A stretch of DNA of 64,000 nt from assembly GCF_006007965.1 (NCBI RefSeq), contig NZ_CP040748.1:1860001-1924000 (forward strand). Direction: 5' to 3'. The notes under the pieces are model-generated. The model saw only the letters and a program-made list of their open reading frames with translations. It did not search any database and had not been told where the DNA came from. A program made the translations under genes and the position numbers. Shown one piece after another: positions 2,627 to 13,554 of the stretch (positions within the stretch are counted from its first letter, which is position 1; the number at the start of each line of letters is the position of its first letter). The stretch is from Nocardioides jishulii. GTDB taxonomy: Bacteria > Actinomycetota > Actinomycetes > Propionibacteriales > Nocardioidaceae.

Positions 2627-3331
2627 TCAGGCGCGACGGGCGCGACGCGAGAACCAGAACAGCAGCCCGGCTGCGACGACTGCCAGGGCCCCTCCGCCGA
2701 GCACGACCGCAGGCATGCCCTCGTCATCGGCAGCCGCAGCCTTGGTCTCGCTGTCCCCGCCGTCAGCGGAGGCGCCGGAGGCACTCGCCATCGAGCCGAT
2801 GACACCGCCCTTGGTGGCCTCGCAGTCAGCGGTGATGTTGATGTTCATCATCTCGTCGAAGGCGAAGTTGAAGCCGGTCACCTCGATCTGGGCATCAGCA
2901 TCGTCCAACTGGACCTGCCCCGTCAGACGCGGCATCACCACCTCGGCGTTGGCCTCCGAGTTGACCGTGTGCGTGGCGCGCAGCTCCATCTCCTGACCTC
3001 CCACAGTCCCGATGGCGCGCACACGCATCGTGCCGTTCTCGATGGGCACCGGCGCGATGCCGGGAAGCTTCGGGAACTTGCCGACGAGCTCGACCGTGGT
3101 GCCGGGCTCGAAGTCACGAGGCCCAGCCACCGAGACCTTGCCCTCGTAACGGAACGCGCTCTGGAAGGGAAGCAGCAGGCAGTCGAACGTCACCTTCCCC
3201 TGGGCCACCGGGGCCACGTCGGAGCCCTTGACCGGCGCGTACGCCGATGCGCCCGACGCGGTGAAGCTCGACAGAAGGAAAGCGGCAGCGGCGCCAACCG
3301 CCAGCGTGTGTCGCCTTGAACTCGTGCTCAT
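2627..3331 (-). CDS. Secreted, tail-anchored surface protein with one DUF6801-like beta domain
   Basis: A 234-residue protein with a signal peptide (MSTSSRRHTLAVGAAAAFLL, then A-rich cleavage region). One beta-rich domain spans about residues 45-185, beginning GKVTFDCLLLPFQS and ending ITADCEATKGG, with one Cys near each end that may pair. A low-complexity D/A stretch, a C-terminal membrane helix and an RRARRA tail follow. There is no LPxTG, so it is membrane-anchored rather than sortase-linked. The same domain occurs twice in the neighbour at 3492. It probably displays a ligand-binding domain outside the membrane; the domain name is from memory and its ligand is unknown. Confidence 0.7.
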   Translation of the reverse strand: MSTSSRRHTLAVGAAAAFLLSSFTASGASAYAPVKGSDVAPVAQGKVTFDCLLLPFQSAFRYEGKVSVAGPRDFEPGTTVELVGKFPKLPGIAPVPIENGTMRVRAIGTVGGQEMELRATHTVNSEANAEVVMPRLTGQVQLDDADAQIEVTGFNFAFDEMMNINITADCEATKGGVIGSMASASGASADGGDSETKAAAADDEGMPAVVLGGGALAVVAAGLLFWFSRRARRA

Positions 3332-3391
3332 GGTTCTCCTCGTACGGACCTGTGCCCGCCTGTGCGATGTGGATGACATGTCGTCGTGAGA

Positions 3392-3437
3392 CGACGAAAG
3401 AGGGCCTCGAACCATGCGGGCGAGGCCCTCTTCGTCG
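3392..3437 (-). terminator. Hairpin downstream of the LPQTG gene
   Basis: Arms GACGAAAGAGGGCCTCG and CGAGGCCCTCTTCGTC pair with one bulged A around an 11-nt loop. The hairpin ends the leftward operon 4757-5368/3492-4757 before the next gene. A second GC hairpin (CCCCGGCC...GGCCGGGG) is at about 3459-3478. Confidence 0.7.
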
Positions 3438-3491
3438 CGTACGACTGGGCTCCCCGCCCCGGCCACAGGGGCCGGGGCTGGGGGTCGTACG

Positions 3492-4757
3492 TCAGATCGT
3501 GCTGCGGCGCTGCCTCGGCATCCAGACCAGCAGGCCTGCGCCGATGACACCCAGGGCGAGCGCCCAGAGGCCGATCACCGGCATGGCGTCGCCGCCGCCG
3601 GTCTGCGGCAGGGTGGTGGTACCGCCGCCGGTGCCGCCATTGCCACCGCGGCTGGGCGGCTCCAGGTCGTCGATGTCGCCGACGCCCATGGTCATGGTCC
3701 CCACGGTGCCGTTGTCCGACGTGCAGTCGGCCGCGACATCGGCGCCGGAGATCTTGTCGAACTCGAAGTTGAAGGTCTTGACCTCGACCTTCGCGGAGTC
3801 ACCCTCCACCGTGCCGGTCCCGGTCAAGCGTGGCACCGGGACGGGCTGGTTGGCAGCCGCGTTGACGCTGGAGGAACCCTTGACCTCGACCTCAGTGCCG
3901 TCGAGGCTCAGCTTCGAGGTCACGCGCATGTTGCCGTTGCTGATCGGCACAGGCGCCAGGCCGGGGATGTCACCGAAGTCGGCCGCGATGGTGACCTTGG
4001 AGGAACCCTCCTCCGCGCGAGCACCAGCAACAGTCACCTTGACCTTGTAGTCGTAGGCCTTGGTGAACGTGCCCTTCATCTGGCACTTGAGGGCGATGGT
4101 GCCCGAGGCAGCCTTGCCCTTGGAGTCGGTCTTGGGCGGCTTCGGCGCCTTCGTGGGCGTCGGGGTCGGTGTCGGCGTCGGCGTCGGCGTCGGCGCCGGC
4201 GTCGGGGCGACGCCCAGCTCCGGCGTCAGCGTGCCGAGGGAGCCGCCCGTCGCGGCCGTGCACTTGCCCTCGACGTCCGCGACGTTGAAGTCAAAGCTCT
4301 TGACCGTCACGGAGACGTCGGCGTCCGTCGTGGCCACGGTGCCCTGGATGCCCTTCGGCAGGACCACGGGCTCCTTCGTGCCGTTGTTGCTCGGGTTGAC
4401 GTCCGTCTTGCCGGTGACCGTCAGCGCTGCGGGCTTCCCGCCTGCGTCCACGTTCAGGCTGAGGATGACCTTCTGGTCCTTCAAGGAGAGGAAGGCCGGA
4501 ACAACGCCCGGCAGGGCGGACATCTCGGCCACCAGCGTGACCGGCGAGGAACCCTCGGCCTCACGGATGCCCTTGATGCTCAGGTCCGAGTCGTACACGA
4601 AGTCGGCGCTGCTTCCGAAGGCCGGCATCGTGCAGTTGAACTTGACGGTGCCACTGAGCTCCGCAGGAGCGGCCACGGCGGCCGGAGCCATCGACAGCGA
4701 CGCACCCGCGACCAGGGCGCCGGCAGCGAGGCTGCGCAGCATCGTGACGGGGGTCAT
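3492..4757 (-). CDS. LPQTG sortase-anchored surface protein with two DUF6801-like domains
   Basis: A 421-residue wall protein. After a signal peptide come two copies of the beta domain (first GTVKFNCTMPAFGSS..., second GTIALKCQMKGTFTK...), each ending in a Cys-containing strand (VEGKCTAATGG; VAADCTSDNG). They are joined by a (PT)n linker of APTPAPTPTPTP type. The C-terminus has the full sorting signal: LPQTGG, a hydrophobic helix, then RQRRS. The start ATG overlaps the upstream stop as TGATG, so it is translated with the neocarzinostatin-like gene. A sortase is encoded at 12663. A role as extracellular ligand-binding module is inferred from design and neighbours. Confidence 0.8.
   Translation of the reverse strand: MTPVTMLRSLAAGALVAGASLSMAPAAVAAPAELSGTVKFNCTMPAFGSSADFVYDSDLSIKGIREAEGSSPVTLVAEMSALPGVVPAFLSLKDQKVILSLNVDAGGKPAALTVTGKTDVNPSNNGTKEPVVLPKGIQGTVATTDADVSVTVKSFDFNVADVEGKCTAATGGSLGTLTPELGVAPTPAPTPTPTPTPTPTPTKAPKPPKTDSKGKAASGTIALKCQMKGTFTKAYDYKVKVTVAGARAEEGSSKVTIAADFGDIPGLAPVPISNGNMRVTSKLSLDGTEVEVKGSSSVNAAANQPVPVPRLTGTGTVEGDSAKVEVKTFNFEFDKISGADVAADCTSDNGTVGTMTMGVGDIDDLEPPSRGGNGGTGGGTTTLPQTGGGDAMPVIGLWALALGVIGAGLLVWMPRQRRSTI
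4155..4208. repeat. Hexanucleotide repeat encoding the Pro-Thr linker
   Basis: A run of GTCGGC/GTCGGG/GTCGGT units encodes the (Pro-Thr)n spacer between the two beta domains of the LPQTG protein. Such runs vary in length by slippage and probably act as a flexible wall-spanning spacer. Confidence 0.8.
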
Positions 4758-12601: not shown

Positions 12602-12640
12602 GTGACTACCTCCATGATTCGTGTGCGACCCAAGTCACTC

Positions 12641-12662
12641 TACGCGATGATATATTCTCTGT
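12641..12662. promoter_or_regulatory. Recurrent AT-rich operator/promoter element, copy 3 (divergent surface protein/sortase)
   Basis: The complement reads AGAGAATATATCATCGCG, sharing AGAATATAyxAT with copy 2. On the plus strand TATATT (12651-12656) lies 6 nt before the sortase GTG, so the sortase transcript is probably leaderless. Confidence 0.5.
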
Positions 12663-13334
12663 GTGACCAGGACGTTTCGTAATCTCATCACGAGTGTGAT
12701 CCGGTTGACAGCCGAATTGGCTCTCACAGCCGGGTTTGTCCTCCTTCTCTTCGCCTTCTACCTGCTGGTCTGGTCCAACCACCGGACAGAGGCCGCCCAG
12801 GACAATCTGCTGGCGCAGTTCCGCACGGAGGCAGGCAAGGACGGCCCCGCTGCTTCCAAGAAGCGCCTGGACCCGGGTGACGGGGTGGCAGTGCTCCACA
12901 TCCCCAAGTTCGGCAAGGACTGGGCCTTCGTCGTGGTGGAGGGCACCGACACCGACGACCTGCGCAACGGCCCCGGCCGCTTCAGCGACTCGGCCATGCC
13001 GGGCGAGGTGGGCAACTTCGCCATCGCCGGGCACCGAGCCACCCACGGGGAGCCCTTCGCCAACCTCGACAGCGTGGATGAGGGTGACCAGATCGTGGTG
13101 GAGACCGGCAAGGAGTGGCTCGTCTACGAGATCACCTGGTCGCGCATCGTGGCCCCCTCCGCCCTCGAGGTCATCGCCCCGGTCGCCGGGCATCCGGGTC
13201 GGAAGCCGACCCAGAGCACCATGACCCTGGTGACCTGTCACCCACGCTGGGGCTCGACCGAGCGTCTCGTCGTGGGTAGCCAGCTCGTGGAGCGTCGCAA
13301 GGCGGCCGCCGGTCCGCCCAAGGGCGTCGCGTGA
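12663..13334 (+). CDS. Class E-type sortase
   Basis: A 223-residue membrane-anchored sortase with one N-terminal helix (about 18-38), then the catalytic domain. Catalytic residues are visible: His124 in NFAIAGHRATHG, Cys192 in TLVTCHPRWG and Arg201 in STERLVV. Class E sortases fix surface proteins to peptidoglycan in actinobacteria. Class E enzymes often prefer LAxTG, whereas the two substrates here carry LPQTG and LPKTG. The GTG start follows a -10-like TATATT with almost no leader. Its location in the island suggests a dedicated sortase for the two wall proteins at 3492 and 4757. Confidence 0.9.
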   Translation: MTRTFRNLITSVIRLTAELALTAGFVLLLFAFYLLVWSNHRTEAAQDNLLAQFRTEAGKDGPAASKKRLDPGDGVAVLHIPKFGKDWAFVVVEGTDTDDLRNGPGRFSDSAMPGEVGNFAIAGHRATHGEPFANLDSVDEGDQIVVETGKEWLVYEITWSRIVAPSALEVIAPVAGHPGRKPTQSTMTLVTCHPRWGSTERLVVGSQLVERRKAAAGPPKGVA

Positions 13335-13392
13335 GCGTTCCACCCCGTTCCCCGGCGCCGACCCGCGCCCTCCTCTCCCCCGAAGGACTCTG

Positions 13393-13554
13393 ATGTACGC
13401 AGCCCTGTGGCGCCTCCTCCCCGGCCCGAGGTGGCTCAAGGCCCTCGAGGCGTTGGTCCTGGTGGGCCTCGTCGTGAGCGCACTCCTGATGTGGGTCTTC
13501 CCCGCTGTGGAGCCCCACCTGCCCTTCGACCGCATCGTCATCGGCGAGGCCTGA
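13393..13554 (+). CDS. Small single-span membrane protein downstream of sortase
   Basis: A 53-residue ORF starting MYAALWRLLPGPRWLKALEA, with one hydrophobic helix (LVLVGLVVSALLMWVFPAV) and a short acidic tail ending RIVIGEA. It starts 59 bp after the sortase stop on the same strand and ends before the hairpin at 13630. Short membrane proteins of this type (W/R-rich N-terminus, one helix) commonly follow class E sortases in actinomycetes. The function is unknown; it could assist sortase or insertion of surface proteins. Confidence 0.7.
   Translation: MYAALWRLLPGPRWLKALEALVLVGLVVSALLMWVFPAVEPHLPFDRIVIGEA

Follow-up and report, generated by a model that had tools for sequence, protein, structure and literature searches.

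We have analyzed a stretch of 64 kb from the complete 3.54 Mb genome of Nocardioides jishulii (G000:C1:1860001-1924000, where G000 denotes this source genome). The whole stretch is called the window in the following, and coordinates are counted from its first letter unless a contig or locus is given. At 2627-13554 it carries a block of genes coding for four surface proteins, a class E sortase and a complete importer of the LIV type (the binding lipoprotein LivK, the ATPase LivF and a LivH-LivM-LivG fusion, LivHMG). The block is placed among catabolic genes for proteins of, or resembling, the RCC-reductase (RCCR) family, for a Rieske oxygenase and for an alpha/beta hydrolase. The comparisons described below support that the surface/importer block and the RCCR-like catabolic genes are one conserved, near-perfectly co-occurring unit. 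We hold it to be highly probable that the module serves the RCCR-like/Rieske/hydrolase pathway, because of the co-occurrence, the synteny, and the AT-rich elements shared by RCCR1, livK, the sortase gene and the GntR regulator gene. The block may thus be the part of a conserved catabolic island that handles uptake, with a hydrophobic chlorophyll-derived tetrapyrrole as its most likely ligand, a combined reading to which we give an even chance. Taken as a question of its own, a tetrapyrrole ligand is slightly favoured; that the wall proteins hand the ligand on is a tentative proposal on the improbable side.

The genes from the left island edge (a gene with an ABM domain) to the MFS gene are found in the same order in eight other genomes, which belong to two genera, when the window proteins are compared by tblastn to 40-kb stretches. 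Strong matches to LivK, to the divergent RCCR-like protein RCCR2 and to NCS, the wall protein with a neocarzinostatin-family domain, occur in the identical 9 of 121 family genomes, together with clear matches to the LPQTG-ending wall protein. When 84,980 species, each represented by one genome, were scanned with the LivK alignment, 31 loci came up, distributed on Nocardioides, Mumia, Dactylosporangium, Catellatospora, Actinoplanes/Paractinoplanes, Rhizocola and Hamadaea. All 31, from Nocardioidaceae and Micromonosporaceae alike, keep the order LivK, LivF, LivHMG, NCS with a match to the large membrane-anchored protein SurfBig 5' of livK, and many have catabolic genes nearby in the opposite orientation. 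RCCR2 was present in every one of the 22 LivK carriers tested. Among 201 genomes of the Catellatospora family (Micromonosporaceae) RCCR2 is found in 28 and a strong LivK in 27, with 27 genomes common to both; the two genes lie 8-42 kb apart in 26 of these and on separate contigs in the last one. An order-wide survey with the repeat domain of the LPQTG protein added 10 strong carriers, again all with RCCR2, which was found in none of four tested genomes with partial or tail-only matches. The co-occurrence p-values, 9e-14 and 1e-32, assume independent genomes, an assumption that does not hold; the patchy spread in two families and the linkage after rearrangement are a stronger argument for a functional tie. 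The core conserved across the families consists of the NCS wall protein, the C-terminal part of SurfBig, and LivK/LivF/LivHMG. In the original prediction the co-occurrence of the surface module with RCCR-like genes had been set beforehand as the point at which the idea could fall; the link held in both families, and the search for the same block near RCCR-like genes of other actinobacteria, proposed at the same time, was successful.

The AT-rich elements, which the original prediction had also described as common to the block, stand up as well. They have the consensus GATnRTATATyC and are located 5' of RCCR1 (837..848, plus strand), 5' of livK (10505..10516, minus), between SurfBig and the sortase gene (12646..12657, plus), near the GntR regulator gene (GntR/FCD type) at 26744-27430 (26634..26645, minus) and, at 33894, in the interval between two other catabolic genes. 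The pattern GATNRTATATYC, with at most one mismatch, has 5 sites in the window where 0.11 would be expected. Genome-wide it has 11 sites, 6 of them outside the window, and the three exact ones are all inside. It should be noted that the pattern was written from the window sites, and that independent support comes from recurrence in the eight other genomes: similar elements lie 5' of RCCR1 and near the GntR gene in all eight and at livK and/or the sortase gene in seven. A role as GntR operator, as -10 region or as both at once is possible. A general -10 box is unlikely considering the 6 one-mismatch sites in the rest of the genome; the element could include a -10. The surface/importer block and the catabolic genes are probably co-regulated.

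All the parts of the block that the original prediction had listed are present. The order of transcription on the minus strand is SurfBig, LivK, LivF, LivH-LivM-LivG, NCS, LPQTG protein and SurfA, and the plus strand carries the sortase gene followed by a gene for a membrane protein of 53 amino acids (13393..13554, from its translation), which is kept in 7 of the 8 syntenic genomes. The window contains no tRNA gene.

The importer genes are livK (9099..10481, with a start at 10481 or 10424), livF (8372..9106) and the livH-livM-livG fusion (5487..8375), all on the minus strand. Family searches find two BPD_transp_2 permease domains (PF02653 in two stretches) and a LivG-type ATPase (ABC_tran, BCA_ABC_TP_C) in the fusion, and a LivF-type ATPase (ABC_tran, 99.8 bits) in LivF; LivG and LivF are the top NCBIfam families for the two ATPases, both scoring under their cut-offs. 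The fused chain has 962 amino acids and is matched over 0.9-1.0 of its length in the Nocardioidaceae loci. LivK has an invariant lipobox Cys. Its sequence has no Pfam match at E <= 0.01, stays below all family thresholds and is distant from every solved type I binding protein; the AlphaFold2 (AF2) model (pLDDT 82) has type I binding proteins as top fold matches, with Z 24-27 over about 340 residues.

The sortase (12663..13334, plus strand) has the catalytic His, Cys and Arg (motifs GHR, TLVTC and ER) and scores 222.8 bits against the class E family NF033747, for which the cut-off is 160. The original prediction called it a dedicated sortase, which needs to be narrowed. A class E sortase does belong to the block; a linked sortase, like the LPQTG repeats, was seen in Nocardioidaceae only, is outside the cross-family core, and in the Micromonosporaceae loci no linked sortase matching this one was found. 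The source genome has a second sortase gene at about 954-956 kb of the same contig (L003:1357-3404), which adjoins a gene for an LPLTG-ending, pilus-like protein, and a third sortase-domain match elsewhere (L002).

The NCS gene (4757..5368, minus) codes for an LPKTG wall protein with a PF00960 domain (67.9 bits, cut-off 25). It reaches 59.2 bits against the enediyne chromoprotein equivalog NF040680, under the cut-off of 86, and its matches in PDB are apo-kedarcidin/neocarzinostatin at E about 1e-5. The cysteines and the sorting signal are retained across both families, the signal being LPKTG or LAKTG in most proteins; set against the LAXTG-type substrates of class E sortases, the signals are LPQTG and LPKTG in the block itself and LAKTG in the NCS proteins of Catellatospora and Hamadaea. 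Proteins of this family hold hydrophobic chromophores, as is established for the enediyne apoproteins.

The LPQTG wall protein (3492..4757, minus; orthologues in 8 of 8 syntenic genomes) contains two copies of a domain of about 150 amino acids with a PT-rich linker between them. SurfA (2627..3331, minus) is secreted and tail-anchored without LPXTG, has one such domain, and seems to be a lineage-specific copy of the repeat in the LPQTG protein. The AF2 model of the domain predicts nine strands, all beta, with pLDDT >85 for SurfA residues 41-180. The domain belongs to no Pfam family (17 members searched at E <= 1 gave the LPXTG anchor and chance matches only) and has no credible match among PDB sequences. 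Among the fold matches listed one is an outlier, 3LSO (Z 9.9, 141 residues, 3.5 A; Foldseek E 3.4e-3), a membrane-anchored protein of Corynebacterium diphtheriae for which our literature search found no functional paper. CR structures, the domains of Hta proteins, are absent among these listed matches, a list which is compatible with a relation.

SurfBig (10538..12601, minus) is secreted and membrane-anchored, and the alignment defines a conserved C-terminal domain, one transmembrane helix and a cytoplasmic tail. The tail has a repeated VVDLxAxxxWW-like motif which is partly kept in Micromonosporaceae, and we suggest that it contacts the transporter. The counterpart of SurfBig in Mumia is two separate proteins with a third between them (L071:12512-16670 and related loci of Mumia and Micromonosporaceae); the third one is DUF916-like by eye and is missing from the Nocardioides blocks. 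Fused in Nocardioides and split in Mumia, the two parts of SurfBig are suggested to act together.

To the left of the block lie RCCR1 (863..1681, plus; PF06405 54.8 bits, cut-off 24.9), an epimerase-family gene and the ABM-domain gene. The ABM-domain protein (497-817) is kept in 8 of 8 syntenic genomes, and its Pfam family includes haem-degrading enzymes of the IsdG type. To the right follow genes for an arylmalonate-decarboxylase-like protein, a membrane protein, an SDR and a 328-amino-acid protein, and then RCCR2 (16903..17745), the Rieske oxygenase (17801..19012), the alpha/beta hydrolase (19023..20018) and RCCR3 (20024..20842), the last four on the minus strand. A lipocalin/DUF3598-like nature was suspected for the 328-amino-acid protein, which has no family match. 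A likeness of the SDR to plant NYC1/NOL is not used as evidence, its family and PDB matches being generic SDRs. RCCR3 scores 48.0 bits with PF06405 and has plant RCCR, 3AGA, as top match in PDB (E 2.9e-7). RCCR2 has diverged too far to be caught by the Pfam model, with no Pfam match over threshold, and is weakly similar to RCCR3 (26%, E 7.8e-8); of the three RCCR-family or RCCR-like genes in the island it is the most useful survey marker. The top solved matches of the island RCCR proteins are plant RCCR and algal bilin reductase. The Rieske oxygenase is of the VanA_C type (PF00355 and PF19112, both over cut-off), and its nearest solved relatives are SxtDIOX, SxtT and NdmA. The hydrolase has weak matches to PF12740 and PF12146 and to PET-hydrolase/cutinase. 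The search for a Mg-dechelatase with Staygreen gave no match in the 121 genomes, and is uninformative in that the control genomes gave none either. Genes in the window at 13676-14428, 32023-32784 and 41766-45558, are arylmalonate-decarboxylase-like, isochorismatase, cyclase, PrpD-like and hydantoinase/allantoinase-like, and other island genes are assigned at the family level to HMG-CoA-lyase-like proteins and CoA transferases. Substituted cyclic imides are known fragments of tetrapyrroles, and judged from their families the hydantoinase/allantoinase-like, isochorismatase, cyclase, PrpD-like, HMG-CoA-lyase-like and CoA transferase genes would suit the breakdown of such an imide (maleimide).

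The tetrapyrrole reading builds on two RCC-reductase-family proteins over the Pfam cut-off, one of them nearest to plant RCCR, and on the chromophore binding of the NCS family. No export signal was seen by eye in the RCCR-like and Rieske enzymes, and a tetrapyrrole, if it is their substrate, must therefore enter the cell. The proposed mechanism would run as follows. The wall anchoring of the neocarzinostatin-fold protein would be the work of the sortase, as would that of the LPQTG repeat protein in Nocardioidaceae. SurfBig would span the membrane, its domains facing outward and its conserved tail reaching into the cytoplasm. The ligand, for which pheophorbide or an early bilin are candidates, would be taken by LivK and imported by the LivHMG/LivF ABC transporter to reach the RCCR-like enzymes, the Rieske oxygenase and the hydrolase.

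Several observations weigh against this model. Importers of the LIV type are known for small solutes, and the fold neighbours of LivK bind amino acids, aromatic acids and urea, with one titled fatty-acid binding; the fold hence does not tell the cargo. Import of a tetrapyrrole through such a system would be unusual, which makes the import of a smaller fragment a live rival. The MFS gene of the island (29253-30740) offers an alternative import carrier, and binding of the ligand by the surface proteins or LivK is something that we infer. No PaO domain was found in the Rieske oxygenase, where Rieske and VanA_C are the sole matches at E <= 0.001, and the hydrolase stays under the family cut-offs. 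Copies of the repeat domain occur in secreted proteins next to genes that by eye look like those for thiolase, MaoC and acyl-CoA dehydrogenase, in the source genome (G000:C1:1649013-1649435; L225:5527-6789) and in Nocardioides gilvus (G054:C4:100552; L229:4423-5262); these, together with an unrelated locus in G552, rule out that the domain is specific for tetrapyrroles. Finally, one genome (G209, C8; L169, L170) has kept the catabolic gene order but has no importer/surface block in the vicinity, and a strong LivK is absent from the genome as a whole.

Three other explanations have been considered. The importer could take a small product (a substituted maleimide, a mono- or dipyrrole, or a branched acid) that is formed outside the cell or by neighbours; the surface proteins would serve to hold the cell on plant debris or pigment-bearing particles, with no ligand handed over. 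Small solutes are what the LivK fold neighbours carry, the hydantoinase-like, isochorismatase, cyclase and arylmalonate-decarboxylase-like genes fit the breakdown of cyclic imides, and all-beta or Ig-like wall proteins are often adhesins. We still find this explanation rather unlikely: the apparently cytoplasmic location of the RCCR-like and Rieske enzymes calls for the entry of a larger substrate, and the NCS protein is conserved with the importer as tightly as LivK. A second possibility is that the island degrades some other hydrophobic ring compound, which the surface module captures, and that the RCCR-fold proteins do another job. The position of RCCR2 below the family thresholds, the nearness of the Rieske oxygenase to enzymes of the SxtT/NdmA type instead of PaO, and the recurrence of the repeat domain beside beta-oxidation-type genes are in line with this. 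Three RCCR-family or RCCR-like genes, two of them over the curated cut-off, with plant RCCR and algal bilin reductase as top solved matches, make it improbable.

An accidental neighbourhood would mean that a surface/sortase cluster and an importer, both of a generic kind, stand next to catabolic genes by chance. In its favour, class E sortases and LIV importers are widespread among actinobacteria, and a sortase substrate with an NCS domain, CwpG (219 amino acids), is listed for Actinoplanes missouriensis (PMC13251363). The idea is at variance with the near-perfect co-occurrence in two families, the linkage despite rearrangement and the shared elements. The surveys, in which 9/121, 22/22, 27/28 and 10/10 genomes show the association, already contradict it, and we regard it as ruled out for practical purposes.

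The original prediction compared the block with the Isd system of Staphylococcus aureus, as an analogous architecture with different domains. The part of the analogy that stands is the display by sortase of wall proteins encoded with an ABC importer, here with LPQTG, LPKTG and a class E sortase. The block differs in that the sortase is of class E, the permeases are of the LIV type and the binding protein is type I. NEAT and CR (HtaA) domains have no match in the surface proteins at E <= 0.01, nor among the 17 repeat-domain members at E <= 1. A haem-type (type II) importer is not what is found either, with BPD_transp_2 permeases and the type I fold of LivK, and homology to Isd or Hta is not supported, neither NEAT nor CR domains having been found. 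The Hta/Cht hemophores of Corynebacterium (PMC12494546) are likewise displayed on the surface of actinobacteria, and some of them have a duplicated beta-rich domain and a membrane anchor at the C terminus; in contrast to the CR domains our repeat-domain model is without the helices that hold hemin, and the importer is not of the Hmu type. With LIV/HAAT importers the system has in common the two BPD_transp_2 domains, the LivG/LivF-type ATPases and the type I binding lipoprotein, and differs in the fusion of permeases and LivG, in a LivK under all thresholds and in the linkage to surface proteins and an RCCR island. The neocarzinostatin apoproteins share the PF00960 domain and the conserved cysteines with NCS, which unlike them is wall-anchored through LPKTG/LAKTG, under the enediyne chromoprotein cut-off and encoded in a catabolic island.

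In A. missouriensis the class E sortase gene is located away from the genes for its substrates, of which CwpG (AMIS_57330), with its NCS-like domain, is a candidate; the accessible text deals with growth and sporangium formation and reports phenotypes for substrates other than CwpG (PMC13251363). As far as that text goes, CwpG is like NCS in size, in the NCS-like domain and in the C-terminal sorting signal, a likeness at this level and leaving orthology aside, and its gene lies away from the sortase gene as it apparently does in the Micromonosporaceae loci. In plants chlorophyll is broken down by PaO and RCCR, and here too RCC-reductase-family proteins adjoin a Rieske oxygenase; the differences are a VanA_C-type Rieske enzyme without PaO match, the bacterial host and an import module of its own. 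Relatives of bilin reductase in heterotrophic bacteria lie in other gene clusters, in a text where the word actinobacteria does not occur (PMC10151467). The module is thus a combination of a LIV/HAAT importer, a class E sortase and an NCS-family protein, and a member of neither Isd nor Hta.

Enormous amounts of chlorophyll are formed and lost, and a search of the open-access full-text literature found no description of a bacterial gene set for breakdown of its ring. It is conceivable, and for the present rather less than probable, that soil and plant-associated actinobacteria have a complete chlorophyll-scavenging system in which a wall-to-membrane relay with the NCS protein is combined with a LIV-type importer and an RCCR/Rieske pathway. 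If true, this would be a sortase-to-ABC uptake route made from protein families other than those of Isd or Hta. The island with its own surface and import module provides named genes and cultured organisms (such as Nocardioides gilvus, Mumia and Catellatospora) in which bacterial catabolism of tetrapyrroles can be tested directly.

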